From contig WGEO01000145.1 in the NCBI GenBank assembly GCA_015492715.1, positions 1-41,188 of the forward strand: 41,188 bases of DNA, given 5' to 3'. The translations under genes were made by a program, and so were the position numbers. The notes beneath the pieces are model-generated. The model was not told the DNA's origin. It saw only the letters and a program-made list of their open reading frames with translations, and did not search any database. The DNA is from Phycisphaerales bacterium (GTDB lineage Bacteria; Planctomycetota; Phycisphaerae; Phycisphaerales; UBA1924). Shown here one piece after another: positions 4,677-26,950 of this stretch (the stretch's first letter is position 1; each line of letters opens with the position of its first letter).

Positions 4677-4686
4677 GATCCGGGCG

Positions 4687-6132
4687 ATGAGCATGGCCCA
4701 GATCCAGCGGGCGCAAGCCCTTGCGCGCAGCGGGCGCACGGAGGAGGCGATGCACCTTCTCCAGCAGGTGGTAAAGCGCCAGCGGTCTTCGCTCCAGGCC
4801 CACGCGCTGCTCGCGGACCTGTGCCTCGCAAGTGGGCGACTGGAACGCGCACTGGAGGGATATCGGACCTGCGCTCGACTTCGCCCGCGCGATCCGGAGT
4901 TTCCCTTTCGCTGCGCCCTGGCGCTGATCCGCATGTCGCGTCCGGACGAGGCACTGGCCCGCCTCGATCAGGCGCTGGCGATCCAGCCGGCGCATCGCGC
5001 GAGCGTCGCGTGGAAGGCCTCGCTCCTGGAGGTCGCCGGGCGGTATGACGAGGCCGAGGCGGTGCTGGACGGATTCGCCGACGAGCCGGACGCGGAGATG
5101 GACCGCGTGCGTGCGCGCCTTGCGCTGGTCCGGCAGGACGCGCCCGGATGCATTGCGATCTGTGAGCGGCGTCTGGCATCGGCGGGGCTGGATGATCGTC
5201 TGCGGGCGCAGTTCGGGTTTCTGCTGGGGCAGGCCCTGGATCGGATGGGATGCTGCGACGAGGCGTTCGACGCGTTCGTGCGTGCCAACGAGGTCGGTGC
5301 GACGGGATTCGACACGGACGCGTTCGAGCGCTGGGTTCGTCGGGTCGCGGAGGTCACGCGGGCGTTGCCGGAGCTGGAGGCAGGAGATCTGGGCGAGGGG
5401 ATCGTGCTCATCTGTGCCCTGCCGCGAGGGGGCACGACGCTGGTGGAGTCGATCATCGACGCCCATCCGGAGGGCGCGGGGATCGGCGAGAGCGACGAGC
5501 TCGACAGCGCGAGCCTGCTGTGTGCGGGACCGAAGGGATATCCCGAGGGGCTTGTCGAGCCTGACGGGCGGCGATGCGGGAGGGTTGCGCGGGAACTGGA
5601 TCGGCGCATGCGCGTCCGTGCGCGCACGGCACGCGTCATCGCGAACAAGAACCTTCGCAACTGGGTCCATGTGGGGCTGGCCCGCCGTCTGCTGCCGAAG
5701 GCTCGCTTCCTCTGGGTGCGGCGCGAGGCCCGCGATCACTGCGTCGGGATGTTCACGCAGGATCTGGGGGGGGCGGACATGGGCTTTACGCGCGATCTGG
5801 TCAGTGCTGCGAGGGTCTGGAAACTGCACGAGCAGGTCATGCGTGCGTGGCGCAGCGAACTGGGCGAGCGGATGCTCGAGGTTCACTATGAGGAACTGGT
5901 CCGGGAGCCCGAGCGACTTGCGCGCGAGATCATCGGATTCTGCGGGCTTGCCTGGGACGAGGGGTGTCTTCGCTTCCATGAATCGAAGCGGGCGGTGCTG
6001 ACGCACAGCGCCCAGCAGGTGCGTGAGGGGATTCACAGCAGGCGGATCGGGCGCTGGCGCCGGTTCGAGAGGCATCTGGGGGCGATGCTCGAGGAACTGG
6101 GGATCGCAGACGGTGGGGAGGATCCATGCTGA
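4687..6132 (+). CDS. TPR-repeat sulfotransferase family protein (copy 1)
   Basis: N-terminal TPR repeats (MAQIQRAQALARSGRTEEAMHLLQQVV...), then PAPS-binding-like ICALPRGGTTLVESIIDAHPEGAGIGES and a C-terminal sulfotransferase tail (LEVHYEELVREPERLAREIIGFCGLAWDEGCLRFHESKRAVLTHS). ATG at 4687 chosen inside the longer ORF. Confidence 0.85.
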   Translation: MSMAQIQRAQALARSGRTEEAMHLLQQVVKRQRSSLQAHALLADLCLASGRLERALEGYRTCARLRPRDPEFPFRCALALIRMSRPDEALARLDQALAIQPAHRASVAWKASLLEVAGRYDEAEAVLDGFADEPDAEMDRVRARLALVRQDAPGCIAICERRLASAGLDDRLRAQFGFLLGQALDRMGCCDEAFDAFVRANEVGATGFDTDAFERWVRRVAEVTRALPELEAGDLGEGIVLICALPRGGTTLVESIIDAHPEGAGIGESDELDSASLLCAGPKGYPEGLVEPDGRRCGRVARELDRRMRVRARTARVIANKNLRNWVHVGLARRLLPKARFLWVRREARDHCVGMFTQDLGGADMGFTRDLVSAARVWKLHEQVMRAWRSELGERMLEVHYEELVREPERLAREIIGFCGLAWDEGCLRFHESKRAVLTHSAQQVREGIHSRRIGRWRRFERHLGAMLEELGIADGGEDPC

Positions 6133-7622
6133 AGCCTCGCGAGCGAGCCATCATCCATCAGGCGAACCAGCACTACGAGGCGGGGCGCCTGCAGCTTGCG
6201 CAGGAGTTGTGCGAGAGCCTCATCCGCGGGAAGAAGGGACCGCTCGAGGCATTCCACCTGCTGGGGCTGGTGCTGATGCGTCGCGAGCAGACGGAGCGGG
6301 CGCTGGACTGTTTCCAGCAGTGCGCCCGCATGCGTCCGAACGATCCGCAGTTTCACTATCTGATGGGCAAGATGCTGGCAATGAGTGCGCGCAGCGAGGA
6401 GGCTCTGGCGCGGTATGACTGGGCGCTGACGCTCGACCCCGAGTATGTGCCGGCGATCACCTGGAAGGCGGCGCTGCTGGAGCGAGCCGGGCGCAACGAC
6501 GAGGCCCGGGCGCTGCTCGAGCCGCTGCTGGGGACGGATCGGGAAGATCCGGAGATGCAGCACATCATGGCCCGGATCGAGCACGGCGACAAGCGCTACG
6601 AGCGATGCGTGGAGATCTGCCGGCGCGAGGTCGACCGTCCGGGGCAGACGCTGCGCCTCCGCCAGTTGCTGGGGTTCCTGCTGGGCAGGACCTATCACCG
6701 GATGGGGGAGTATGACAAGGCGTTCGAGGCGTTCCGCGAGGCCAACGCGCTGCAGCAGGAGACCTTCGATCTGGAGGGCTACACGAGGGCCATCGAGCGC
6801 TGCGTGGAGGTGTTCTGCGGCCCCGATCGCGAGCGGATTCCCGTGGCCCGGAGCGGCGGCGAGGGCATGGTCATGATCTGTGCCATGCCCCGATCGGGCA
6901 CGACGCTCGTCGAGACGATCATCGATGCGCACCCGGACGCGGTGGGCATCGGCGAGACGGCGGACCTCGATCGCGTGATCGTGCGTCTGCCGCTGACGCT
7001 CCAGACCCAGACACCATATCCGGACGCGGCGATCGGGATGGATCAGCAGACGATGGACCGTCTGGCTCGCGATCTGCAGAAGGTCTTTCGCGGGCGGGCG
7101 GGCTCGTCGGCGAGCGTGATCGTGAACAAGCACCTGCAGAACTGGCTGCATGTCGGGTTCATGCGTCACATCATGCCGAACGGTCGGGCGATCTGGGTGC
7201 ATCGGGACCCGCGCGACAACTGCCTTGGCATCTACATGCAGCACTTCAATCCCAGGACCCTGGGGTATGCGGTGGATCTGCGGATGCTGGCGCGCGTGCA
7301 CACGCTGCACATGCGGATCATGCGTCAGTGGATGGAGCGACTGGACTACCCGATCCTCGAGGTTCCGTACGAGGCGCTGGTCGAGGACCCCGAGCCGTGG
7401 ACACGCCGGATCATCGAGTTCTGCGGGCTGGAATGGGACGACGCGTGCCTGCGGTTCTATGAGCGGGGGCGGGTCGCCCTGACGCACAGTTACGAGCAGG
7501 TCCGCCGGCCCATCTACAAGGAGGCGATCGGCAGATGGCGCCTCTACGAGAAGCACCTGGGGCCGTTGCTGGAGGAGCTGGAAAAGGCGGGCGCCGAGTT
7601 CAGCGACCCGCCAGGGCCATGA
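6126..7622 (+). CDS. TPR-repeat sulfotransferase family protein (copy 2)
   Basis: Same architecture as the preceding ORF: TPRs, ICAMPRSGTTLVETIIDAHPDAVGIGET, VPYEALVEDPEPWTRRIIEFCGLEWDDACLRFYERGRVALTHS. Overlaps copy 1 by 7 bp. Confidence 0.87.
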   Translation: MLKPRERAIIHQANQHYEAGRLQLAQELCESLIRGKKGPLEAFHLLGLVLMRREQTERALDCFQQCARMRPNDPQFHYLMGKMLAMSARSEEALARYDWALTLDPEYVPAITWKAALLERAGRNDEARALLEPLLGTDREDPEMQHIMARIEHGDKRYERCVEICRREVDRPGQTLRLRQLLGFLLGRTYHRMGEYDKAFEAFREANALQQETFDLEGYTRAIERCVEVFCGPDRERIPVARSGGEGMVMICAMPRSGTTLVETIIDAHPDAVGIGETADLDRVIVRLPLTLQTQTPYPDAAIGMDQQTMDRLARDLQKVFRGRAGSSASVIVNKHLQNWLHVGFMRHIMPNGRAIWVHRDPRDNCLGIYMQHFNPRTLGYAVDLRMLARVHTLHMRIMRQWMERLDYPILEVPYEALVEDPEPWTRRIIEFCGLEWDDACLRFYERGRVALTHSYEQVRRPIYKEAIGRWRLYEKHLGPLLEELEKAGAEFSDPPGP

Positions 7623-12115: not shown

Positions 12116-12517
12116 ATGGGGCGCAGGGGATCGGATCTGACGGATGCGGAGTTGGAGGTCCTGAAGGTCCTCTGGGAGGGACAGTCCAACACGGTCCGGG
12201 AGGTCATGGAGCGTCTGCACGCCAAGGGGCGGAAGGTCGCCTACACGACGGTGCTGACCTTTCTCAGCCGTCTGGAGCAGAAGGGGTATGTGCGCAGCGA
12301 CAAGGCCGGGCTGGCGTATGTGTATCGCCCGAAGCAGAGCCGCGAGCGTGTGATCGCCAGTCGCCTGCGGGCGCTGGCGGACCAGCTCTTCGACGGAGCG
12401 ACGGCCCCGATGGTGCTCCAACTGATGAAGAGCGAGCGCTTCACGCACGAGGAGATCGAGGCGTTTCGGCGGCTCATCGACGAACTCGACAGGACCGGTG
12501 CGGAGGACGGGGCATGA
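12116..12517 (+). CDS. BlaI/MecI/CopY family transcriptional repressor
   Basis: MGRRGSDLTDAELEVLKVLWEGQSNTVREVMERLHAKGRKVAYTTVLTFLSRLEQKGYV: winged-helix BlaI pattern, with a C-terminal dimerisation region. Confidence 0.92.
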   Translation: MGRRGSDLTDAELEVLKVLWEGQSNTVREVMERLHAKGRKVAYTTVLTFLSRLEQKGYVRSDKAGLAYVYRPKQSRERVIASRLRALADQLFDGATAPMVLQLMKSERFTHEEIEAFRRLIDELDRTGAEDGA

Positions 12518-14958
12518 CGGGCGTGCCGGTTTCTTACGAGGTCCTGTGGTCGTCCGCGCTGGCGTTCGTGCCCATCGCGTTCGCAGGGGCGCTGCTGGTC
12601 TGGGGCCTGCGCCTGCGCCCCGCATCGAGACATGCACTCTGGACCGTCATCCTCGCGAGTCTCATGGTGCCGCCGGTCGTGCATGCACTGGACCTGCCAC
12701 GCCTGACCGTTGCGGATTCGCAGGCAGTACCCGACGACATCGCACACCGACGAGCCCAGGCTTTCACGGAGCCTGAAGCCGGCGAGAGCGTTCCTCGTGC
12801 CGGTTTCTCGTCCGCAGCCCCGGTCCGCTTGGGTGGTCAGCGGCAGGAGCCCGCATCAGGCGAGGTTCCGTCTCTGGGCGGCAGCGGGGCTCTGGAACTG
12901 CCTGCGCCGGTGCCGGTCATCGCCATGGACGGTATGGGTGGCACGCTGTCCCCCGTGATGCCATCACGCGTGTGGATGCAGAGAAAAACTCCGACGGTCG
13001 ATGGGACCGCGCCCCCGAACCAGGAGCGGGCGAGCGAGCAGACGCATGGAATCGCAGGAGCGGATTCGGCTTCCGAATCGCGGGATCTCGTGTCTGCGGG
13101 CGATGGGCGGTCCTGGCGTCGGGCGTTGCTCGTCGGGGTCGAATGGGTGCGCAGCGTTCCCATGCTGCCGCGCGAGGTCTGGCTGGGGGGCGTGCTGCTC
13201 TTCGGCGGAGCGTTCGCTGTGCAGGTGCTCCGATTGTCGCGCATGACTCGTCGCGGCAGGCCGACGGACCCGGGTACGAGCCGCCTCGTGCGGGATCTGA
13301 GCGGGCAGATGGGGCTCCGGCGGGTGCCCGAGGCCGTGTTCGTCGACGCCCGCGTCTCGCCGATGGTGACCTGCGGCATCTGCGCGAAGATCGTCCTGCC
13401 GGCGTCGCTGTGGGAGGAACTCGACGGTGAGGCCCGCCGGGGCGTGCTCGTGCATGAGCTGGCGCACCTGCGCCGGCGCGACCATGTGCTGTGCTGGTTC
13501 GAGTCGCTGCTGGGCGTGCTGTACTGGTGGCATCCGGTGGTGTGGTGGATTCGTCGGCGTCTTCACGAGGACGCCGACCTGTGCTGCGACGCGTGGGTCG
13601 TCAGCGTGCTGCCTGGGCATCGACGCGCGTATGCCGAGGCGCTGGTGACGACACGGGCGTTCATCGCCGACGGACGGGCGCGGGCCGTCGGCGGAGGCCT
13701 CGGGATGGCCAGCCCCCGCGCCAGGCGGTTCACAAGGAGGTTGTCGATGATCATGACGCAGAAACTGTCGCCGAGGATCGGGCTCGCGGGCCTTGGGCTT
13801 GCCGGGTGCCTGATGATGGGAGGTGCGGCGTTGGCTCCGGCGTTGGCGTGCCCGCCGGAGGGCGAGGAGGAGCCCGCGGCGTTGATCCGCCTGCTCGATC
13901 AGGGGCAGGATCAGGTCGCAGGTCGCGCGCAGATCGCGGTTTCCGAGCGGGCAGAGGCTCCCGCCCTGCTCTCGATCGTGTCCCAGCCGGAAGCCCGCAC
14001 CGATCGCGTCGAGGAGCGGATCGCCCGCCTGGAAGCGCAGATCGAGCGTCTGATGGCGATGATGGAGCAGCGCGAGGCACGCGCCCGAGCAGCGATCGTG
14101 CCGCCTCCGCCGCAGGTGGCGGACAGGCCCATCGTCGCGGAACGGCTTGTTCCCCCGGGTCGCACGATGGAGCGTGCCTATCACCTGCCCGAGGGCAAGA
14201 TGAATGCGCTCTGGGAACTGATGGCTCGCCCGGATGTGCCCGTCTTTGTGAGCCGGGAAGGCGACGCGATCGTGGTGCACGGGACGCCCGAGCAGCAGCG
14301 GATCTTCGCGGCATTCGTCGCGATGATCCACCCGGAGCATGGCGACGCCGGGGGTATGCGGGCACCGCAGGATCCCCTGGAGTTCATGGACCCTGAACTG
14401 GAGCGTGCCCTGCGGGGGCGGGAAGAGCGGGTGAAGCAACGCGTCCGTGAGTTCGAGCCACGACTGGCGGAGCTGGAGGCCATGCATGCGCAGCTCGAGG
14501 TCGAGGCGCACATGCATGAGATGCGTCTGGACGACCTGCTCGAACAGGCGGATCGCCTCTTCGACCAGAGCGAACGCATGGAGGAGATGGGCGAGGAACT
14601 CCAGGAGCGAGCCGAGGAGATGGAGGGGCGCCAGGGACGCGTGTTCCTTGAGCGATCCCGTGAACTTCGGATGCAGGCCGAGGAACTGCGGGCGCGTGCA
14701 AGGCAGATGGAGCTGGAAGCCGAGGCCGTGGAGGACCGCCTCGATGAGATCGACGATCGGATGGAGGATATCGAGGACGAGATCGAGGACCTGCACGAGC
14801 ATGCGGCGGCGTTGCAGGGCGATGATGTGATCGACTTCGACCAGGACGACTGGGATGAGGACGACTGGGATGAAGACGAGTGCGAGGGCATCGAGCAGGG
14901 CGATGACAGCGAGGGATCTGACGACGATCACGAAGACGACGAGGCGGACGCGATCTGA
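12514..14958 (+). CDS. BlaR1/MecR1-like M56 family membrane metallopeptidase with C-terminal coiled-coil and acidic tail
   Basis: N-terminal TM helices, VHELAHLRRRDHVLCWFESLLGVLYWWHPVVWWIRRRLHEDADLCCDAWV (HExxH and downstream E/D), a later TM (IGLAGLGLAGCLMMGGAALAPALA), heptad-rich Glu/Arg region, acidic end DDWDEDDWDEDECEG. Overlaps the blaI-like stop by 4 bp. Confidence 0.88.
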   Translation: MTGVPVSYEVLWSSALAFVPIAFAGALLVWGLRLRPASRHALWTVILASLMVPPVVHALDLPRLTVADSQAVPDDIAHRRAQAFTEPEAGESVPRAGFSSAAPVRLGGQRQEPASGEVPSLGGSGALELPAPVPVIAMDGMGGTLSPVMPSRVWMQRKTPTVDGTAPPNQERASEQTHGIAGADSASESRDLVSAGDGRSWRRALLVGVEWVRSVPMLPREVWLGGVLLFGGAFAVQVLRLSRMTRRGRPTDPGTSRLVRDLSGQMGLRRVPEAVFVDARVSPMVTCGICAKIVLPASLWEELDGEARRGVLVHELAHLRRRDHVLCWFESLLGVLYWWHPVVWWIRRRLHEDADLCCDAWVVSVLPGHRRAYAEALVTTRAFIADGRARAVGGGLGMASPRARRFTRRLSMIMTQKLSPRIGLAGLGLAGCLMMGGAALAPALACPPEGEEEPAALIRLLDQGQDQVAGRAQIAVSERAEAPALLSIVSQPEARTDRVEERIARLEAQIERLMAMMEQREARARAAIVPPPPQVADRPIVAERLVPPGRTMERAYHLPEGKMNALWELMARPDVPVFVSREGDAIVVHGTPEQQRIFAAFVAMIHPEHGDAGGMRAPQDPLEFMDPELERALRGREERVKQRVREFEPRLAELEAMHAQLEVEAHMHEMRLDDLLEQADRLFDQSERMEEMGEELQERAEEMEGRQGRVFLERSRELRMQAEELRARARQMELEAEAVEDRLDEIDDRMEDIEDEIEDLHEHAAALQGDDVIDFDQDDWDEDDWDEDECEGIEQGDDSEGSDDDHEDDEADAI

Positions 14959-15157: not shown

Positions 15158-18100
15158 ATGCGCACCGGGCGCCCCATCCGGGCGGTCATGCTGGGCGTGC
15201 TCTGGCTGGTGACGGGGTACGCTTCGGCTCAGGAAGACCTGACACGCTTCTACACGGCCAACGGGCTGCTCCAGCGCGGGCTGTACGACCTTGCCATCCC
15301 CGAATACGAGGCGTTCCTTGCCGAGCATCTGGACAGCAAGGAGACTGCGACGGCGCGCTATGGGCTGGCTGTCAGTTATTTCCGGCTGGACAGGCTGGAT
15401 GAGGCCGCACGCCAACTCGACGCCATCGTCGACCTCGACGGCTTCGAGTTCGCCGCCGAGGCCCTGCTCCTGCGGGGCCACTGCCATCTGTCGGCGGGGG
15501 AGTACGAGCAGGCCGCCCAGCGATTCGAGCAGATCATCGCACGATTCCCGGACCATCCGTCCAGTGCGGACGCGGCGGGGCTGCTGGCAGAGGCCTTGTA
15601 TCGCGCGGGCAGGAACGAACGGGTTCCGGACGCCGTCGCGTGGCTCGTCGAGCACTATCCGGAGCACCCGCGCCGCGAGCGTGCGGAGTTGGTGCTGGCT
15701 CTGTCGCACATTGCACAGGCCGACGAGGCTAGCGCCCAGCGCGTGCTGCGCGACCTGCTGGAGCGTGCGCCCTCGGGTCCATACGCGGACCACGCGACGC
15801 TCCTGCTGGCCCAGTCGCTGCACCGGCAGGGAATGCGCGCCGCCGCCCGCCCGCTCTATGAGAAGGTCGCGCAGTTGAAGGGGTCGCGCCATCGTGCTCA
15901 TGCACGCCTGGGGCTGGCCAGCCTTGCCTACGCGGCGGGGGACTTGGAAGAAGCCGGCGAGATGCTCGATGCGCTGTTGAAGGACGAGGATGCGCGCCCG
16001 ATCGTGGACGATGCCCGCCTGCTACAGGCGAGGATCGCCCTCGATCAGGGCGAGAGCGAGCGGGTCCGGGCTCTTCTGGATGCCATCGCCAAGGGACCCC
16101 GGCAGGACTTGCACGACGATGCCGCGTACTGGCGTGCCAAAGCGGCTCTGCGTCAAGGGAGCCCTGACGAGGCGGCCCATCTGCTGGGTGAACTGATCGA
16201 GACCTGGCCATCCTCCGATGTGCTCGCCGAGGCGATGTATGACCTGGGTGTTGCGCTGGCCCGATCGGGCGATCCAGAGCAGGCGCTCGCTGCCTATGAG
16301 GCGTTTGAGCGTCGATTCCCTGATCATCCGCTGACGCCGTCGGCGGTGCTCGCGCGGGCGACCATTCTGCACCAGCAGGGCGAGTACGACCCTTCGCGTG
16401 CCCTGTGCGAGCAGATCGGCGCGAGCGACGCGCCCGAGGATATCCGCGAGCAGGCCGCGTTCCTGATCGGCGAGAATCTCTCGTTCGCCGGCAGGACGGA
16501 AGATGCGCTGGCGGCGTACAGGGCCGTCCTTGAGCGCACGGGAAACAACGACCTGCGCGAGCGGGCGTCGTACCGCATGGGCATGGTCCTTGCGCGTCTT
16601 GGGCGATTCGACGAGGCTCGCCCGTTCCTGGAGCGTGCGGCTCAGCGTGCCGAGAGCGATGCCCTGTTTTTGCCAGCCCTGTTTGCGCTGGGCGATGGGC
16701 TTTTCCTCGGCGAGCATTGGGACGAGGCGATCGAACGCTTCGACGCATATCTGCGCAGCGAAGATCGGGATCCGGATCTGGTCGACGATGCGTTGCTCAA
16801 GAGCGCCCTCGCGCACCTGCGTCTGGGAGAGGCGGCTGAAGGCGAGCGCCTGCTGGAGCGGCTGCGTCGTGATTATCCCCAGAGCGAGCACGCCGAGCAG
16901 GCGCTGTTCGAGCTGGGCCAGAGCGCCATGCTGCGCGGTGATGATGCGCAGGCCCGCCTGCTGCTGGAGCGGCTCGTGGACGAGGCCCCTGCGTCGCGCT
17001 TTGCGCCTGCGGCGCTGCGTCATCTGGGGGCCATCGCGTCGCGTGCGGGCGACTACGAGCAGGCCGAGCGGGACTTCGCCCGACTGGGAGAGATCGACGC
17101 GGGGGCACGGGCGGAGGCGGAGGTGCTGCGTGGGCAGGTGCTGATGGCCCGACAGGCGTTCGCTGAAGCACGCGACGCGTTCGATCGAGCGCTGTCGGCC
17201 GACCCGGACGAGGCGACGGCCAGCGAAGCACGGGCACGCCGGGCGATCTGTCTGGCCCGTCTGGGGGATCTCGATGTCGCTCTCGCAGCGATGGATGAGG
17301 TCGATGCCTCGGCGCTCACGGACGGCCTTGATCGCTCGCTGGCGTACGAGCGGGCTCGCGTGCTGAGCGAGCTCGGGCGTGTGGACGACGCGATCGCGGC
17401 GTACCGGGCGTTGCTGGCGGACGACAGGCGGGATCTGTTCCGTGTGCACGGGCTGCTGGAATACGGTCGGCTGGAGATGGATCGCGAGCATCACGATCGC
17501 GCGATCCGGGCGATCGAGCGGGCGGTCGCCCTCGGTGAGGAGCTGGAGGTGCGTGACGATCTGCGTGCGCGGGCGCTGTACAACCTCGGGGTTGCGCTGT
17601 ATCGGGCGAACCGGGATGAGCGGGCGGCCGAGACGATGGACACGCTTCGGGCGCGCTATCCGGACCATGCGCTGGCGGATTCGGCAGGGCTGATCGCGGG
17701 CGAGTCGCTGTTTCGCGTGGGGCGATATGCCCGGGCGGGCGAGCGTTTCCGGTCATTGATCGAGGAGGGTGGCGACGACGAGACGCTCCGGAGTGCGATG
17801 CTGCGTCTGGGCGAGTGCGAGACGGCGCTCCAGCGATGGACGGAGGCGGAAGAGGCGTTCGGCGCATTTCTGCGTCGCTTTCCTGAGAGCGAACTGGCCT
17901 ATCAGGCACGGTTCGGGGTGGCGTGGGCGCGTGAGAACATGGGGCGTTACGAGCAGGCGATCGAGGGGTATCGTGAGGTCGTCCGGACGCACAAGGGGCC
18001 GACGGCGGCGCGGGCGCAGTTCCAGATCGGCGAGTGTCTGTTCGCGATGGAGCGATATGCGGAGGCCGTGACGGAGTTCCTGCGGGTGGACATCCTGTAT

Positions 18101-18286
18101 GGGGTGGACGCGTGGACGGCGGCGGCGTTGTACGAGGCGGGGCGCTGCTTCGAGGCGCTGAACAAGGTGGGCGAGGCCCGCGAGCAGTATGCGCAGGTGG
18201 TCGAGCGTTTCGGCGACAGCGACTGGGCGCGTCTGGCACGCGAGCGACTCGACGCGATCGCACAACGCGCGGGCTCCGGAGGCTAG
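15158..18286 (+). CDS. secreted/periplasmic multi-TPR protein
   Basis: Signal peptide-like MRTGRPIRAVMLGVLWLVTGYASAQ, followed by many TPR units (YDLAIPEYEAFLAEH, YEQAAQRFEQIIARFPDHP, PEQALAAYEAFERRFPDHPLTPSA, YEQAIEGYREVVRTHKGPTAARAQFQIGECLFAMERY). Confidence 0.88.
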   Translation: MRTGRPIRAVMLGVLWLVTGYASAQEDLTRFYTANGLLQRGLYDLAIPEYEAFLAEHLDSKETATARYGLAVSYFRLDRLDEAARQLDAIVDLDGFEFAAEALLLRGHCHLSAGEYEQAAQRFEQIIARFPDHPSSADAAGLLAEALYRAGRNERVPDAVAWLVEHYPEHPRRERAELVLALSHIAQADEASAQRVLRDLLERAPSGPYADHATLLLAQSLHRQGMRAAARPLYEKVAQLKGSRHRAHARLGLASLAYAAGDLEEAGEMLDALLKDEDARPIVDDARLLQARIALDQGESERVRALLDAIAKGPRQDLHDDAAYWRAKAALRQGSPDEAAHLLGELIETWPSSDVLAEAMYDLGVALARSGDPEQALAAYEAFERRFPDHPLTPSAVLARATILHQQGEYDPSRALCEQIGASDAPEDIREQAAFLIGENLSFAGRTEDALAAYRAVLERTGNNDLRERASYRMGMVLARLGRFDEARPFLERAAQRAESDALFLPALFALGDGLFLGEHWDEAIERFDAYLRSEDRDPDLVDDALLKSALAHLRLGEAAEGERLLERLRRDYPQSEHAEQALFELGQSAMLRGDDAQARLLLERLVDEAPASRFAPAALRHLGAIASRAGDYEQAERDFARLGEIDAGARAEAEVLRGQVLMARQAFAEARDAFDRALSADPDEATASEARARRAICLARLGDLDVALAAMDEVDASALTDGLDRSLAYERARVLSELGRVDDAIAAYRALLADDRRDLFRVHGLLEYGRLEMDREHHDRAIRAIERAVALGEELEVRDDLRARALYNLGVALYRANRDERAAETMDTLRARYPDHALADSAGLIAGESLFRVGRYARAGERFRSLIEEGGDDETLRSAMLRLGECETALQRWTEAEEAFGAFLRRFPESELAYQARFGVAWARENMGRYEQAIEGYREVVRTHKGPTAARAQFQIGECLFAMERYAEAVTEFLRVDILYGVDAWTAAALYEAGRCFEALNKVGEAREQYAQVVERFGDSDWARLARERLDAIAQRAGSGG

Positions 18287-18310
18287 CGGACGGGACACGG
18301 ACGGATACCG

Positions 18311-19093
18311 ATGATGAGATGGCACACATCGATGCTGATAGCGCAGATCACGCCCGAGGCCGGCTCGGCGGCAGCTGGATCGAGCACGCTCTGGGAGCTT
18401 GCCCTCAAGGGCGGGCCCATGATGATCCCCATCGCTCTGTGCTCGCTGGTGGCGCTGGCGGTGGTGCTGGAGCGACTGCTGACGCTGCGCACGCGGGCGG
18501 TGATCCCGCCCTCGTTCATGCCCGGTCTCAAGAAGATTCTGCGCGAGCATCCGGGCGATCGTGAGCGGGCGCTGGCGTACTGCGCCAAGAGCCGGAGTCC
18601 GATTGCGCGGATCTGTGCGGCGGCGATCGAACGGCCCGGACGATCGCTCGAGACGATCGAGAAGCGGATCACGGAGGCCGGCGAGCACGAGATCCTGCGT
18701 CTGCGCAAGTATCTCCGCTCGCTGAGTGTGATCGCCGCGGTCTCGCCGCTGCTCGGGCTCACAGGGACGATCTTCGGCATGATCCGGGCATTCCAGACGG
18801 TGGCGTTCAACGCGGATGCGATGGGCAAGACGGAGCAGCTTGCCACGGGGATCTACGAGGCGATGGTGACGACGGCGGCCGGTCTGCTGGTCGCGATCCC
18901 GGCCCTGATCTTCTACAACCTGATCGCTGCGAGGATCGACCGTCTCGTGGCGCAGATGGACCGCGCGAGCATCGCCTTTGCCGAGGATTTCTACGAGAGC
19001 CAGCAGCAGGGATCATCGCAGCGACCGGTGGCGGTTGCCAGCGCATTTCTGGCGGGCGAGGACGACGGGCTTGCGTCGGCGGAGGTGAGTTAG
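18311..19093 (+). CDS. MotA/TolQ/ExbB family proton channel protein
   Basis: GGPMMIPIALCSLVALAVVLERLLTL, IAAVSPLLGLTGTIFGMIRAFQTV, GIYEAMVTTAAGLLVAIPALIFYNL: canonical ExbB/TolQ signature. Confidence 0.94.
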   Translation: MMRWHTSMLIAQITPEAGSAAAGSSTLWELALKGGPMMIPIALCSLVALAVVLERLLTLRTRAVIPPSFMPGLKKILREHPGDRERALAYCAKSRSPIARICAAAIERPGRSLETIEKRITEAGEHEILRLRKYLRSLSVIAAVSPLLGLTGTIFGMIRAFQTVAFNADAMGKTEQLATGIYEAMVTTAAGLLVAIPALIFYNLIAARIDRLVAQMDRASIAFAEDFYESQQQGSSQRPVAVASAFLAGEDDGLASAEVS

Positions 19094-19507
19094 ATGTTTC
19101 TGAAACGCCAGCTCGACGAGGCATCGCCGCAGATCGATCTGACGCCGGTGATCGACATCGTCTTCCTGCTTCTGATCTTCTTTCTGGTGGCGACGACCTT
19201 CGCGCAGCAGGAGCGGGAGATGAAGATCGTGCTGCCGGAGGCGGCAAGTGCGGGGCCGATCTCCGCCGTGCTCCGTGAGATCGTGATCAATGTCGACGCG
19301 GAGGGGCAGGTCATCGTCGCGGGTCGGGTTCTCAGCGACGACGATCTGCGCGCGCTCGTGCGCGATGCGCTGGCGCAGAATCCACAGCAGAAGGTGACCG
19401 TGCGTGGGGATCAGTCCGTCCATTACGGGCGGATCGCCCAGGTGCTGGATATCTGCCGGCAGGAGGGGGTGGGCGAGCCGTTCCTCGACACGGTTCCCAT
19501 CCGGTAG
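19094..19507 (+). CDS. ExbD/TolR family biopolymer transport protein
   Basis: PQIDLTPVIDIVFLLLIFFLVATTFAQQEREMKIVLPEA: single TM with Asp. Starts directly after the ExbB stop. Confidence 0.94.
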   Translation: MFLKRQLDEASPQIDLTPVIDIVFLLLIFFLVATTFAQQEREMKIVLPEAASAGPISAVLREIVINVDAEGQVIVAGRVLSDDDLRALVRDALAQNPQQKVTVRGDQSVHYGRIAQVLDICRQEGVGEPFLDTVPIR

Positions 19508-19511
19508 GCTC

Positions 19512-22500
19512 ATGCGACGCGTGCTCCGCTCCATCCTGCTCGTGGCTGCGCTTGCTGTGCTGCTCGGCGGCGCTGCGTTCGTGATCGAGCACGAGACGAG
19601 CGCGGGCGGCACCTATCTCAGCGACGATCGGGGGATCCATGTCCCGGCTTCGGATGCGCCGATGCGCCGGATTCTGTGGTCGCCGGCGGTGGGGCTGGGG
19701 GACACCATCAACAGCGCCGCGGACGAGTACGAGCCGTATCTCAGCCCGGACGGGAATCTCCTGCTCTTCGTGCGTGGGCGTCCGGGAGGCTCGGCGGACA
19801 TCTATGCAAGCAGACGCACGCACGGGGGGTGGGCGCCTCCCGTGCGTCTGGAAATCTCCAGCGACGCACACGACGAACTGGGGCCCTGCCTGAGCCCCGA
19901 CGGAACGACGCTCTACTTTGCGTCGGATCGCCCGGGTGGAGCGGGGGGATACGACCTCTGGGCGTGCGACATCGACGCGTCGCTGCGGTGCGGCAACCCG
20001 CGGAACCTGGGTGACCGTGTCAATACACCGTTCGACGAACGCAAGCCGACGATCTCGCCCGATGGCGCCCTGCTTGTCTTTGCATCGAACCGGGTGGAAC
20101 GGGCGTCAGGCGAGGAGGCATGGACGGCGACGCTTCGCGAGCAGGTTCGGAATCCCGACTCCGACCTGTATGCCGGCACGCTGACGGCGGGCGGGATCAG
20201 TGCGGTGCGTGCGATCGAGGCGCTCAGCACGGATGCTCGTGAGGGGGCGCCGGCGTTCAGTCCGGGCGGCGACTTTCTGTACTTCGCCTCGGATCGGGAT
20301 GGGGATTTGGATATCTATCGCGTGCGGCTGACGCCGGGCGATGGTGTGTTCTCGATCCGGCACGCGATCGAGCGGGTCGAGGCACCGATCAGCGGTCCGT
20401 CGCGCGATCTGGACCCGACCATTGCGCACCTCGGCTTTGCGCTGGTGTTCAGCAGTGATCGTTCGCGGGCAGGGGCCACGGACGATGCCTCGGTGGACTT
20501 CGACCTCTATCTCAGTACGGCGCGTGAGGTCTATGCGTCGGTGGAGACGATGCCCATCGACTGGGCATCGATGCTCGGCACGGCCCTCGTCTGGCTGTTG
20601 TGGCTGCTTCTTCTGCTGCTCCTCGTCTTGCTGCTGGTGCGACTGCTTCGGCGGGTCGAGTTGCGCGAGCGGTATCGGAGGCTGAGTCTGCTCGCCCGCT
20701 GCCTGCTCGTGTCGATGCTGGTGCATCTGCTGTTGCTGGCTGCGGTGGGGGCATGGAGGCTGGGCACGGCGCTGGGGGACGCGATGGACCGGTCCGGTGC
20801 AGCGCGGGTGGCGATCATGAGTCGTGATGGGACGACCGACCTTGCGAGCCAGATCCGTGGGCGTCTGACGAGCGTTGCGGTTCGTCCGCTGGCGCTGGCG
20901 ACCAATGCGCCGATGCCCGCTCTCGCATCGATCGAGCCGCTCGAGATCCGGGCCATGCCGGGGGACACTCGGGCGCATGCTGATGCGATGGTGCATCTGC
21001 CGGCGCAGGAGGCCATGCCGGGCCAAACGCCGCGCGTCGAAGATGGTCTCTCGGATGAACAGGAGATTCGACCGCCGGTTCCCGATGCCCCCGTTCCTTC
21101 GGTCGCGGGCGACGAGCCGACGGTGCGGGTCGGGGGCCACTCGGCGCAGGGAGCACAGGATGCACTCCCGAAGCCGCTGGACGAGCCTGCGCCTGTGGAG
21201 CCCGTGCCCAATGAGCCATCGGCGATCTCGCTGGCTCCACTGGTCGAGGCGGTCGCGGACGGGCGCATACGCGATGATGATGTCGTGCCGGCGGCGCCGG
21301 ATGCCGTGGATGCGTCGCACCCGATCGCCCTTGGGACGCCGGTGGCGCATCGGCGACAGCTGGAAGACGATGCGGGGCTGCTGGTGCGTGCACCGGAAGC
21401 GGCGGTCGATGCGCCCGAGATCGTCGAGGAGGTGCGCGTCCGGAAGGTCGCTCTTGCGCCGTCGGTCACGGTCGTTCCGGATGGAGATGTCGCATGGTCG
21501 GCGGGGTCCGTTGGAGCAGAGGCGTGTGTGGGCATCGACACGACTCGTCAGGTGCTGATGGAGATGCCGGCCAATGACATGCCTCGGATCGAGACGCCAT
21601 CGCAGGTTCCCCAAGAGGCATCGAGTGAGGGGACCCTGACGATCCGCCCGACGCCCGGGAATGCCCTGCAGCCGGCGGAAACGCCCTCGCCGGTATCCCT
21701 GCCCGTCCAGTCCGCGGGGGCACATGCCAGTGTCATCAGGCTCACGGAGATACCGGTTGCCCTGCACGCCGCCACGGTGCAGGGCCATGGCGGGCCCGTG
21801 CGGGAGACGGCACTCGAGCCCGAGGTCGTCGAAGGGCTGGATATCAGCGTTGGTATGCCGAGGGAACCGGCTGATGCCGATCCGACGGAAGAGCGTGAGC
21901 ACGACTTGGAGATCCGGATCGCGGCGGGTGGAATCGGTTCCGTGCCCGTCTCGCCGGACGGCTTGTGTCGAACCGCACGCGTCGATGCGATACCCGTCGC
22001 GAGCCAAGTCAACGGGGTGCCGCGGGCAGTCGCCGGTGTCGCGGATGCCCGTCCGGCGCCAGACCTTTCCCGTCCGGGAATCGAAGGCGCCGTCTTGCCC
22101 ATGGTGATATCCGACCACTCTGCCTTGCCGGCGTCGCCTGAGGATGACGCGAGGATGGCGATGGGGCATGCCGAGGAGCGATCCCTGGTGGTTGCGCCCA
22201 GTATGGACACCGATGTGAGGCCCGTTCCCGCGCATGAAGCGGCGGCGTTCGAGACGGTGATCACGCACAGCGCTCCGCAGATGTCGGAGCTCGTGGAGAT
22301 GGCCGTGGGCAGCACGCCGGGGGAGGCCGAAGCGTCTGCACGGCGTCCCGTGTCGTCGAGTCTGGAGCCGATCATCGAGGATGTCTCGCTCGGGCTGCCC
22401 ACGCCGGGTGAGGTGGCGGCTCCTGCCCATGCTCTGGCCCAGCGTTCGCCCGAGGTTCGCCGTGAGTTGCTGGAGGATCTGGGCGGCAGCGAGCTGACGG

Positions 22501-24149
22501 AGTTGGGAGTCGAGCTTGCATTGGACTGGCTGGCGCGACATCAGATGCCCGACGGCTCGTGGTCGGGGCATGACTACGACGCACTGTGCGGGTCATGCGA
22601 CGGGGCGTCGCGTGAGGACGAGCCGGTGGCCCTGACGGCGCTGAGCACCCTGGCGTTCCTGGGCGCCGACTTCACGCACCGGACGCCGAGTCCGTATCGG
22701 CGGGCGGTCGCAGATGCGCTGGACTGGCTGGTCGAGCGGCAGGGTGAGGATGGGGATCTCTCGGGCGTCGGCGATATCCACGCCCATGCCATCGCCACGC
22801 TTGCTCTTGGCGAGGCGCTCCAGATGACCCAGGACAGATCGCTGCGTGATCCGCTGGCCCGAGCGGTCGCCTATATCGAGACCTACCACGCGTCCACCCC
22901 GGATCCGTGGAAGGCGAAGGCTCCCGACGAGCCGGTGCTGGCGTGGCAGGTCATGGCGCTGATCAGCGCCAGGCGAGCGGGTATCGAGATTCCAGACACC
23001 ATCCTCGATGCGGCCCGTGATCGACTGGACGACCTGGTCATTGCGGGCACGCGGGGCGTCTATGCACCCCGACCGGGGGTGCGCCCGACGCGGATCGCGA
23101 CGGCGGAGGGCGCCTTTGCCCGGCGTCTGCTGGGATATGCCCGCCAGGATCGATCGCTCGAAGAGTCCGCGAGGGTGCTTGCGCGAGACAACATCGAGTG
23201 GGACGAGGCGAACTCCACGACCGAGTGGTCCATGACGACGCTCGCACTCTTCCAGCACCAAGGGCCGCTGTGGGCGGCGTGGAACACGGAACTCGTCGAG
23301 ACGCTCCTGAGCCATCAGGAGACCGGCGGACGGCAGGCGGGGTCGTGGGAACCTCGGGATGAGCGATCGGCGATCAACGGGCGCGTGCATCAGACCGCGA
23401 TGGGGGCGCTGATGCTGGAGACCTATTACCGCTATCTGCCGGGCTTCATGGACGATGAGGCGGTCGATCGGGGCGTCGTGCGTGGGCGGGTGCTCGATGC
23501 GGAAACCGCTATGCCGCTGAGCGGGGCGCTCGTGCGTCTGGATCTTGCCGGGCGGGCGCCACTCGTTGCGGTCACCCGTGACGACGGAAGATACACGCTC
23601 CGCCCGGGGGCGGTGCCCGAGCATGTGGCGCTGACGGCGACGCGTCGGGGATACGAGCCCGCGTCGGTGAGCATCCCGACCCAGCGGCTCGCTTCGGGCA
23701 TCGTCGAGCGGGATATCCGTCTCTCGCGTGAGTCGCTGGGCGAGGTCGCCCTCGAGCGACAGCCCCGGGTACATCATCTGGGGAACAACGAGTTCACGGG
23801 GCGGATCAACAGCCAGTTCCAGCGACGCTCGGAGGGCCTCGTGTTTCGAGCGACATTCACGCTGACACGCGAGCAGATCGAACAGGCTGCCCCGATCGTC
23901 TATCTTCGCCTGCTCGCCAAGGGTGCCCAGGCTCCCAATCCGGTGCGGATCAACGGACACCGCCTCGCCCGTCGTCTGACGGACTCCCCGCGAGACGGGA
24001 GCTTCGGGGAGTGGACAGGACGGATCGAGCGTGCGTGGCTCATCGAGGGCGAGAACACCCTCGAGATCCGGAGTGTGCGCGGCGAGGCGGACCTCGACGA
24101 CTTCGAGTTCGTCAATATCCGCCTGTTCCTGCAGCCCGACGGTTCCTGA
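19512..24149 (+). CDS. giant envelope protein: N-terminal TM, PD40/TolB-like beta-propeller repeats, TM hairpin with TonB/TolA-like SxxxH helix, long linker, terpenoid-cyclase-like toroid, carboxypeptidase-regulatory-like domain, C-terminal beta domain
   Basis: LSPDGTTLYFASDRPGGAGGYDLWACD, FSPGGDFLYFASDRDGDLDIYRV; LVWLLWLLLLLLLVLLLV and LLVSMLVHLLLLAAVGAW helices; LALDWLARHQMPDGSWSG and ALDWLVERQGEDGDLSG toroid repeats; VRGRVLDAETAMPLSGALVRLDLAGRAPLVAVTRDDGRYTL. Start ATG 19512, 4 bp after exbD-like stop. Confidence 0.86.
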   Translation: MRRVLRSILLVAALAVLLGGAAFVIEHETSAGGTYLSDDRGIHVPASDAPMRRILWSPAVGLGDTINSAADEYEPYLSPDGNLLLFVRGRPGGSADIYASRRTHGGWAPPVRLEISSDAHDELGPCLSPDGTTLYFASDRPGGAGGYDLWACDIDASLRCGNPRNLGDRVNTPFDERKPTISPDGALLVFASNRVERASGEEAWTATLREQVRNPDSDLYAGTLTAGGISAVRAIEALSTDAREGAPAFSPGGDFLYFASDRDGDLDIYRVRLTPGDGVFSIRHAIERVEAPISGPSRDLDPTIAHLGFALVFSSDRSRAGATDDASVDFDLYLSTAREVYASVETMPIDWASMLGTALVWLLWLLLLLLLVLLLVRLLRRVELRERYRRLSLLARCLLVSMLVHLLLLAAVGAWRLGTALGDAMDRSGAARVAIMSRDGTTDLASQIRGRLTSVAVRPLALATNAPMPALASIEPLEIRAMPGDTRAHADAMVHLPAQEAMPGQTPRVEDGLSDEQEIRPPVPDAPVPSVAGDEPTVRVGGHSAQGAQDALPKPLDEPAPVEPVPNEPSAISLAPLVEAVADGRIRDDDVVPAAPDAVDASHPIALGTPVAHRRQLEDDAGLLVRAPEAAVDAPEIVEEVRVRKVALAPSVTVVPDGDVAWSAGSVGAEACVGIDTTRQVLMEMPANDMPRIETPSQVPQEASSEGTLTIRPTPGNALQPAETPSPVSLPVQSAGAHASVIRLTEIPVALHAATVQGHGGPVRETALEPEVVEGLDISVGMPREPADADPTEEREHDLEIRIAAGGIGSVPVSPDGLCRTARVDAIPVASQVNGVPRAVAGVADARPAPDLSRPGIEGAVLPMVISDHSALPASPEDDARMAMGHAEERSLVVAPSMDTDVRPVPAHEAAAFETVITHSAPQMSELVEMAVGSTPGEAEASARRPVSSSLEPIIEDVSLGLPTPGEVAAPAHALAQRSPEVRRELLEDLGGSELTELGVELALDWLARHQMPDGSWSGHDYDALCGSCDGASREDEPVALTALSTLAFLGADFTHRTPSPYRRAVADALDWLVERQGEDGDLSGVGDIHAHAIATLALGEALQMTQDRSLRDPLARAVAYIETYHASTPDPWKAKAPDEPVLAWQVMALISARRAGIEIPDTILDAARDRLDDLVIAGTRGVYAPRPGVRPTRIATAEGAFARRLLGYARQDRSLEESARVLARDNIEWDEANSTTEWSMTTLALFQHQGPLWAAWNTELVETLLSHQETGGRQAGSWEPRDERSAINGRVHQTAMGALMLETYYRYLPGFMDDEAVDRGVVRGRVLDAETAMPLSGALVRLDLAGRAPLVAVTRDDGRYTLRPGAVPEHVALTATRRGYEPASVSIPTQRLASGIVERDIRLSRESLGEVALERQPRVHHLGNNEFTGRINSQFQRRSEGLVFRATFTLTREQIEQAAPIVYLRLLAKGAQAPNPVRINGHRLARRLTDSPRDGSFGEWTGRIERAWLIEGENTLEIRSVRGEADLDDFEFVNIRLFLQPDGS

Positions 24150-24241: not shown

Positions 24242-26950
24242 ATGAGATACCTGCAGCGTGTCGCCATCGCGTGTGTTGTCTCGGCCTGTGGTGCTGCGAT
24301 GGCGGCGCCCCAGCCGTTTGAAAAGGTCGGGGCGGGATTCGAGCCCGTCGTGTCCACCAGCGATGGGACCCGCCCGCTCTGGAATGTCTATCGCAAGGGC
24401 GAGCAGCTGCTCGCGGAGATCCCCGGCTCGAAGATCGGCAAGCGCTTCTTTGTCGTACCCACGGTCGCAGGGGGCGACCCGCAGGCCGGCGTGTACTCGA
24501 TCTGGCACAACCGGGTCGGGCGACCGTCGATGCAGCTGTACTGGAAGAAGATCGGGGACAATCTGGCGCTGATCGAGCCGAACCTGCGCGTGCGCAGCCA
24601 GGGCGACGCCGAGTCCAGGGCGGCGACGAAGCGCGTGTACACCGATCGTGTCGTCCTGACCGTGCCGATCGTGGCGCGCGGCCCCAATGGCGGGCATGTG
24701 ATCGACCTGGATCATCTCTTCCTGCGTCAGTCCGGGGCCTTCTTCGGCGGGTTTCTTCGTGGGGCCAAGACCGAGCTCGCCGAGATCAAGTCCGCCAAGG
24801 CGTTTCCGTACAATATCGAGGTGACGATCGAGGTTCCGCGAGCCGACGGTCGGATCGTGCAGGTGCACTATTCCATCGGCACGCCCCCGCCCAGCCGGGG
24901 CTTCAAGCCCCGGATCGCGGACCGGCGCGTCGGGTTCTTCTATACGGACTTTGTCGACCGATCGAAGAACGACGGCGAGAGCCAGAAGATCCGCTATGCC
25001 AACCGCTGGAATCTGGAGAAGCGCGACAAGAATCTGAAACTCAGCCCGCCCAAGCAGCCCATCGTGTACTACATCGAGCACACAACCCCCGTGCGCTATC
25101 GCAAGTGGGTGCGCGAGGGCATTCTCGCATGGAACAAGGCGTTCGAGCAGGTCGGGATCACCGGCGCGATCGAGGTCCGCCAGCAGGACGCCCAGACCGG
25201 CGCGTACATGGACATCGATCCGGAGGACATCCGCTACAGCTTCGTGCGATGGACGAACTCGCACATGGGCTTCGCGATCGGGCCCGTGCATGTGCACCCG
25301 GAGACGGGCGAGATCTACGAGGCCGACATCGTGATGGACGAGGTCTTCATCTCCGGCTGGGCGCAGGATCACGAGACGAGCCAGCTGGCGACGGAGGCGA
25401 TGCGGGCCTTCGACGCCGAGACCGTGGCCTGGTTCGAGGACCATCCGGAGTGGGACCCGAGGTACCGCTTGGCGCTCCCGGGCGATCGCGCACGCGTGCT
25501 CGCGTATCTTGAGGCCCGACGCAGCGGGCGGCAGTGGGAGGGCGAGGTTCCGCCCACCATGGCGCCGCGTGTCTGGCAGGAAGTGGATCCGGAGATCGCG
25601 GCACGCGGCGGTCTCTGCAACGCGCTCTTCGAGCTCAACACCCAGATTGCGCGCACACGGACGGCCCTGGATGCCGGCGTGCTCGATCTGCCCATCGGCG
25701 AGGACACCCAGCTGCTGGACGGGCTGCCCGAGGACTTCGTCGGCCCGCTCCTGCGTGCGGTCATCATGCACGAGGTCGGGCACACGATGGGCCTGACGCA
25801 CAACTGGAAGGGGTCCACGCTCTATAGCTACGAGGAGATGAACTCCGAAGATGTGGCCCACAAGAAGCCACACAGCACCAGCGTCATGGACTATCAGCCC
25901 ATCAACATCGTGGCGACGGACGGCGACCTGGTCCAGGGCGACTGGGACATGATCGACATCGGCCCCTATGACATGTGGGCGATCCGCTGGGGGTACGCGC
26001 CCAAGGGAGCCGACGAGATCGCCCGCGAAGCGCCGCGGCGTGAGCATGCGTTCAGTTCTGACGAGGGCCAGCAGGGGCCGGACCCGCACGCGAAGGTGTG
26101 GGACCTGGGTGAGAACAGCCTCGATTATGCGGACAACCAGCTCCGCCTTGCCGATCGCATCCGGGGCAAGATCCTGACCGAGGTGGTCAAGGACAACGAC
26201 TCCTGGCAGAAGGCACGCAAGGCATGGACGCAGACCCTGGGCATGCAGATGGGAGCGATCCGGACGGCCTCGGCTTGGATCGGGGGAGCACACACCAACA
26301 AGTTCCACAAGGGCGATGAGGGCGCGCCGCCGCCCATTCGCCCGGTCGCGGTCGATCGTCAGCGCCGCGCGCTGCACCTGATCTGCGAGAGCGCATTCGA
26401 TGAGAAGGCGTTCGGGCTGAGCCCGGAACTCCTCGCAAGCCTCGGCACGGAGCAGTGGTGGGACGAGAACGGCAATGATCCGCAGGACTGGCCCGTGCAC
26501 GACCAGATCCTCGGGATGCAGGCCTCGGCCATCAGCATGCTGCTGAACCCGACCCGCCTTCGTCGAATCCTCGATAACGAGCAGCGCACGCCCGCGGGAG
26601 AGGATGCCCTGACCGTGCCCGAGGTGCTCGACGCGATGCGCCGGAGCATCTGGGAGGTGCCGCCTCCGGACGGGGCGGTCACGAACCGCAATCCTCGGAT
26701 CTCCAGTTTCTCACGGAATCTGCAGCGCGAGCACCTCAACCGCCTGATCGATCTTGCCACGGGCATGCGCTGGCCCGGGGCGAGCGCACCAACCATCCAG
26801 ACGCTCGCACGCCAGGAACTCCGTCGGATCCACGAGATCCTCGACGGATTCCAGGGCGGGGATCTGGACGATTACACGCGGGCACACCTCGCCGACGCCC
26901 GCGAACGGATCGACAAGGCGCTCGACGCCGCGTACATCCGCGCCGACTGA
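24242..26950 (+). CDS. secreted zinc-dependent metalloprotease (DUF5117/DUF4953-like)
   Basis: Signal peptide [40 protein letters not shown] (HExxHxxGxxH); [10 protein letters not shown] downstream Met-turn-like segment. Confidence 0.9.

Follow-up and report, generated by a model that had tools for sequence, protein, structure and literature searches.

Proton motors of the ExbB5-ExbD2 type act on TonB and TolA through the SHLS motif of the transducer's membrane helix and through a short box that follows it (PMC12215075, PMC12204202). In Ton and Tol cryo-EM structures the Ser and His of this motif touch a Ser and a Trp in TM1 of ExbB/TolQ, linked to a Pro; the motif's Leu and Ser are less conserved in Ton (PMC12215075). 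The boxes themselves, IDAVMVD in TolA and ISVTMVT in TonB, lie 28-34 and 25-31 residues past the His, respectively (positions from PMC12215075). Force transducers with a vWA end have also been described, which are motor-coupled by an SHLS-type motif helix and in the PVC group are accompanied by a TPR gene and two TolR-like genes (PMC12204202). These vWA proteins are the closest published kind to the giant planctomycete protein described here, whose locus probably encodes an ExbB5-ExbD2-type proton motor together with its own force transducer, the effector end being a toroid and/or a beta module in place of the TonB/TolA domain.

The locus lies in a 41,188-nucleotide stretch of DNA from a Phycisphaerales bacterium (contig WGEO01000145.1; hereafter the window), one contig of a 2.68 Mb genome that is 87% complete. 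Four ORFs, encoding a TPR protein, ExbB, ExbD and the giant, are packed there on the forward strand, separated by 24, 0 and 4 bp (Table 1). A preliminary description of this DNA had proposed the same packed set; its coordinates and gaps were reproduced, and Pfam agrees on the TPR, MotA_ExbB, ExbD and PD40 assignments. The start of the giant was taken as the ATG at 19512, in preference to the upstream GTG with which the ORF listed from 19404 begins. Two features are additional to the earlier description, namely a BlaI/M56 gene pair that precedes the TPR gene and two more membrane helices in the giant, C-terminal to its propeller.

Table 1. Features of the four-gene set and of the gene pair preceding it, in window coordinates; residue numbers refer to the giant.
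Feature	Position	Strand	Basis or remark
BlaI-type repressor (Penicillinase_R), first gene of BlaI-M56 pair	12116-12517	+	PF03965 E=1.6e-31
BlaR1-like M56 membrane metallopeptidase, C-terminal coiled-coil tail	12514-14958	+	PF05569 E=6.6e-30
TPR protein	15158-18286	+	secreted, ~1040 aa; TPR families up to 7e-75 (Pfam)
ExbB/TolQ-type proton channel subunit	18311-19093	+	PF01618 MotA_ExbB E=1e-30
ExbD/TolR-type subunit	19094-19507	+	PF02472 ExbD E=2e-26
Giant, putative transducer protein	19512-24149	+	1545 aa
TM1, N-terminal signal anchor, residues 7-25	19530-19586	+	hydropathy
TolB-like PD40 beta-propeller, residues ~52-340	19665-20531	+	PF07676 1.3e-33; AlphaFold
TM2, residues 351-380, then Arg-rich loop	20562-20651	+	AlphaFold helix, hydropathy, loop charge
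TM3, residues 393-426, candidate motor-binding helix	20688-20789	+	hydropathy, AlphaFold
Ser401-x3-His405, Ser-His part of the TonB/TolA SHLS motif	20712-20726	+	
Candidate D/R-box (motor box) ARVAIMS, residues 431-437	20802-20822	+	pattern kept across family
Disordered-type linker, residues 441-973	20832-22430	+	12.4% Pro, 0.4% Lys, no Tyr
Alpha/alpha toroid, residues ~976-1315	22437-23456	+	AlphaFold pLDDT ~90; profile, fold matches
Transthyretin/carboxypeptidase-regulatory-like domain, residues ~1322-1390	23475-23681	+	PF13620 CarboxypepD_reg 5e-7, below curated cut-off; fold matches
C-terminal beta-sandwich, residues ~1397-1545, conserved DxDDFEF	23700-24146	+	AlphaFold; conservation

Judged on their sequences, ExbB and ExbD are orthodox motor subunits by family and by pore residues. 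ExbB matches TolQ structures (phmmer, 9e-14), and its pore Thr, TM1 Ser and IP-Pro are invariant in 53/53 family members, the TM1 Ser and IP-Pro being part of the ExbB side of the published contact network with TonB/TolA; at the position of the TolQ/ExbB contact Trp, which touches TonB His20, the giant-linked family has Leu or another aliphatic residue. ExbD carries the proton-carrying Asp (TPVID), which is aligned in its phmmer match to ExbD (3e-10). Both proteins score under all TolQ, TolR, ExbB and ExbD equivalog cut-offs of NCBIfam, reaching 81 bits against the TolQ cut-off of 221 and 65 against the TolR cut-off of 127.3. The TPR protein reaches 327 bits against the YbgF model TIGR02795 (NCBIfam cut-off 90.1), a score that is spread across the many TPRs of its 1042 residues. 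Elsewhere in the same genome (G000) we noted two further ExbB-ExbD-ExbD motor sets, on contigs C231 (L053:3400-10398) and C6 (L054:6200-7738), one of which is followed by two proteins without a Pfam match, one secreted and 890 aa long, the other of 934 aa with a single, central membrane helix; a MotA/MotB-like pair lies on contig C148.

The N-terminal part of the giant was modeled by AlphaFold with a pLDDT of 84, and the top PDB matches of its propeller are TolB structures (E 3e-12); Pfam calls no TolB N-terminal domain (TolB_N, PF04052) in the protein. The loop between TM2 and TM3 is rich in Arg and Lys, with a mean of 4.5 ahead of TM3 vs 2.2 past the helix. By the positive-inside rule TM3 would therefore be oriented N-in/C-out, so that the linker and the C-terminal domains would lie outside the cytoplasm.

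TM3, with its Ser-x3-His, is the most conserved membrane segment of the giant. Both S401 and H405 are invariant in nine homologues, and among 37 homologues whose selection ignored the motif, the His is invariant, as is a Cys eight positions N-terminal to it, and the Ser is kept in at least 90%. The His is likewise present in all matches listed in a further homologue search, a few of which have Ala replacing the Ser, and in all intact relatives of the giant; its invariance in one family alignment, whose rows were picked by the motif, holds by construction and is not counted as evidence. TolA of E. coli, read from its genome, aligns as KRAIIISAVLHVILFAALIW with ARCLLVSMLVHLLLLAAVGAW of the giant, the Leu and Ser of SHLS not being retained (Val412 and Arg416 in the window giant). 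Moreover, a strand-like segment of alternating hydrophobic residues recurs across the family at a matching distance, and we regard its window form, ARVAIMS, approximately 27-32 residues past His405, as a candidate D/R-box at TolA-like spacing. A profile of TM2-TM3 searched against PDB sequences returned chance matches only and none to TolA or TonB, and the likeness of TM3 is therefore one of motif, not proven homology. The giant of genome G010 is spread over two contigs (L043:6380-7651 and L044), and its first part differs just ahead of the TM3 motif, reflecting either an assembly fault or a broken gene.

Beyond the candidate box, the window giant has a linker of approximately 530 residues with nearly no Lys or aromatic residues, and linkers across the family span 302-759 residues with a median of 14% Pro. 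The C-terminal region was modeled with a mean pLDDT of 90.5 as a toroid, a transthyretin-like domain and a beta-sandwich. Because Pfam makes no toroid call in the window giant, this domain was sought by structure and profile searches. NCBIfam gives a hopene cyclase match at 2e-5, a profile searched against PDB sequences finds squalene-hopene cyclase at 5e-14, and the fold matches are toroids of terpene cyclases and glycan enzymes with a TM-score of about 0.6 by target length. No catalytic DxDD occupies a conserved position in the family toroids, and a DxDD is found in the beta-sandwich instead; cyclase catalysis is therefore unlikely, and we rejected the toroid as an active terpene cyclase. 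The transthyretin-like domain and the beta-sandwich together match the C-terminal domain pair of rhamnogalacturonan lyase (E 4e-8). This resemblance, and the frequency of toroid folds among glycan-active enzymes, would suit a machine for the uptake of polysaccharides or other large substrates, whose toroid and beta-sandwich would bind either a glycan or a receptor in the outer membrane, with import powered by the motor. We consider such a role quite improbable, as a profile search of the 87% complete genome recovered no TonB-dependent receptor barrel (PF00593) and no conserved glycoside hydrolase or transporter neighbor was seen within the window.

Full-length homologues of the giant are present in genomes of the same genus, family and order, where TPR-ExbB-ExbD-giant is repeated, mostly with an M56 gene in front. 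A scan of 85,000 species genomes with one peptide pattern yielded 49 loci, of which almost every one encodes a giant like that of the window, and this single-pattern scan of the collection suggests that the family is limited to Planctomycetota. ExbD lies directly upstream of the giant in 45/45 Phycisphaerae-type loci with upstream sequence, and ExbB and the TPR gene come next in 44 of these 45 (hand tally), the remaining contig ending too soon; among other planctomycete families ExbB and ExbD are in place in 20/20 loci and the TPR gene in 19/20, the exception running off its contig. Homologues of the giant situated away from ExbB/ExbD were thus not found, and the four-gene order from which the preliminary description had argued is conserved in both sets of loci. 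Chance does not account for this order, given that dozens of loci share it and that their proteins are roughly 30-55% identical. Of 392 evenly sampled Planctomycetota genomes, about 40, from about 17 families, encode one full-length propeller giant each (hand count of rows spanning the model), a wide yet patchy distribution; most genomes compared are metagenome assemblies, and the counts depend on profile sensitivity and hand tallies. The main text of an essential-gene study of Planctopirus limnophila does not mention the TPR-ExbB-ExbD-giant genes (PMC10632474).

Other planctomycetes have a shorter, propeller-less protein of roughly 600-900 aa, with a pair of TM helices, after ExbB-ExbD. All 20 of those examined have ExbD upstream and combine a TM helix with [S/A]-x3-H, a linker and a toroid in the same ORF, and profiles of either form, with or without propeller, retrieve the other. 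From the parts shared by both forms it follows that the recurring unit is the motor pair with a Ser-x3-His helix, a linker and mostly a toroid; the propeller and the beta-sandwich are optional additions. Among 43 loci with readable C-termini, 21 end in the toroid alone and 11 in the transthyretin-like domain and beta-sandwich alone, and both modules are present in a further 11, as they are in the window giant. One locus (L161:1-7512, contig C180 of genome G155) has two propeller-toroid giants in tandem behind a single ExbB-ExbD pair.

The BlaI and M56 genes ahead of the TPR gene overlap by 4 bp. Pfam calls no penicillin-binding domain in the BlaR1-like protein encoded at 12514-14958, whose tail is a long, acidic coiled coil and whose gene is paired with BlaI. 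An M56 gene stands upstream of the TPR gene in 34/39 Phycisphaerae-type loci whose upstream sequence extends beyond about 8 kb (hand tally), and the pair is missing from most of the 20 distant-family loci that retain the four genes; it was accordingly ruled out as an obligatory part. The frequent position of BlaI-M56 in front of the set could be taken to mean that the giant is an envelope-stress or signaling protein for which ExbBD is a membrane partner only, in a BlaI/M56-regulated response without force transmission. This is very unlikely, since it leaves the motor-coupling motif and the long linker without explanation, and the loss of the pair from most distant four-gene loci argues that this regulation is not core. 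A DUF5117/DUF4953 Met-zincin metalloprotease encoded immediately downstream of the giant (24242-26950) was also discarded as a part of the system, since it adjoins the giant only in genus-level loci. Farther away in the window, at 4618-7622, two tandem ORFs each combine TPRs with a Sulfotransfer_3 sulfotransferase domain and are probably duplicates.

Comparison with described systems places the giant set outside Tol-Pal and Ton by the defining features tested, yet close to both in anatomy. With the E. coli TolA-TolQ-TolR-TolB-Pal-CpoB system it has in common a motor pair, a Ser-x3-His helix, a candidate box, a long linker, a TolB-like propeller and a TPR protein; it differs in that the propeller is fused to the transducer and lacks TolB_N, TolA domain III is absent, no Pal gene is adjacent and the ExbB lacks the TolQ contact Trp. 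With TonB-ExbB-ExbD it shares the motor pair, the Ser-x3-His helix, a candidate D-box-like strand and a Pro-rich linker, whereas profile search found neither a TonB C-terminal domain (PF03544) nor, as above, a TonB-dependent receptor in this 87% complete genome; TonB and TolA moreover have a single membrane helix, and in the giant two helices and a propeller come first. PorE and the CpoB-TolB-Pal fusion lipoproteins of Bacteroidota likewise unite a PD40 propeller and a carboxypeptidase-regulatory-like domain in one envelope protein (PMC12204202), and NCBIfam reports partial matches of the giant to PorE and CHU_0125, but the giant lacks an OmpA domain and a lipobox and possesses integral membrane helices and motor genes. 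The preliminary description had likened the set to a Tol-Pal or Ton system with its parts fused. One part of this stands, in that a TolB-like propeller and a Ser-x3-His helix with a D/R-box-like segment occupy one chain; against it, Pfam and the AlphaFold model reveal no TonB/TolA C-terminal domain (PF03544/PF06519). Given the absence of this domain and of TolB_N, the sub-equivalog scores of ExbB and ExbD, and a genome without TonB_C or receptor, a mere rearrangement of Tol-Pal or Ton does not describe the locus.

A stronger version of the same comparison would make the locus the planctomycete Tol-Pal, with TolA and TolB fused and the motor freeing or moving a Pal-like lipoprotein so that the outer membrane stays attached during division. 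A CpoB-like TPR protein, TolQ/TolR-like subunits and a propeller whose best match is TolB are indeed found together, canonical TolB_N (PF04052) is rare (11/392 Planctomycetota genomes, and none in the source genome), and Tol-Pal is reported to be largely reduced in Planctomycetes (PMC8871954). Elsewhere in the genome, a lipobox protein with a coiled coil and an OmpA-like domain (contig C45; L050, about 997-1938) could be a Pal-like lipoprotein, though it is not encoded beside the motor genes. We nonetheless regard this version as unlikely, as the TolB_N and TolA/TonB C-terminal domains are missing, many relatives lack the propeller, no Pal gene adjoins the set, and the patchy distribution of the propeller giant argues against a general substitute for Tol-Pal. 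Complementarity between the giant and canonical TolB across the phylum was uninformative, TolB_N being nearly absent everywhere.

The vWA force transducers (PMC12204202) and the giant both place a non-TonB C-terminal domain on a helix with an SHLS-type motif, motor-coupled in the former and predicted to be so in the latter, with TPR and TolQ/TolR-like genes nearby. In the vWA transducers this domain is a vWA fold accompanied by two TolR-like genes, whereas the giant ends in a toroid and/or beta-sandwich, its locus has a single ExbD, and a TolB-like propeller and two extra helices precede the motif; Pfam, the AlphaFold model and its fold matches contain no vWA C-terminal domain. The giant family thus appears to follow the logic of the vWA transducers with a different effector end, and to be a possible undescribed route for energy from the inner membrane across the envelope. 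A literature search of the main texts of mostly open-access papers found no publication on a toroid-ended transducer.

For a proton motor with its own toroid- or beta-module-ended transducer, the genes, their order and conservation, the motif and the predicted folds are direct results, from which we infer topology, binding, force and partner as follows. Three helices would anchor the giant in the inner membrane. The propeller, lying between TM1 and TM2, would be periplasmic, and TM3 would cross from the cytoplasmic to the periplasmic side in the same direction as the TonB and TolA helices. Ser401-x3-His405 would let TM3 dock on the exterior of ExbB, and the periplasmic ExbD dimer may pair with the short strand that follows this helix. 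Proton flow would then alter the arrangement of ExbBD and TM3 such that the long Pro-rich linker is pulled or released, and the toroid and beta-sandwich that it carries would thereby reach a partner at the peptidoglycan or in the outer membrane. As a co-factor in the periplasm, the secreted TPR protein might be comparable to CpoB, and BlaI/M56 may regulate the gene set in the Phycisphaerae-type clade.

More tentatively, and as a possibility that we would not yet favor, the family may constitute a third class of proton-motor-driven force transducers, with a toroid or toroid/beta-sandwich effector, that is widespread in Planctomycetota and has assumed a role at the outer membrane or in division, FtsZ being absent and Tol-Pal reduced in these bacteria. 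For the energization of the planctomycete outer membrane, a family that occurs across the phylum in conserved gene order, bears a motor-binding signature and ends in a new kind of effector offers a concrete candidate, and His405 is one defined residue within it. If this is true, the outer end of TonB/TolA-type transducers would have been swapped more than once, for vWA, toroid and beta-sandwich modules, and the motors that drive them would be modular devices.
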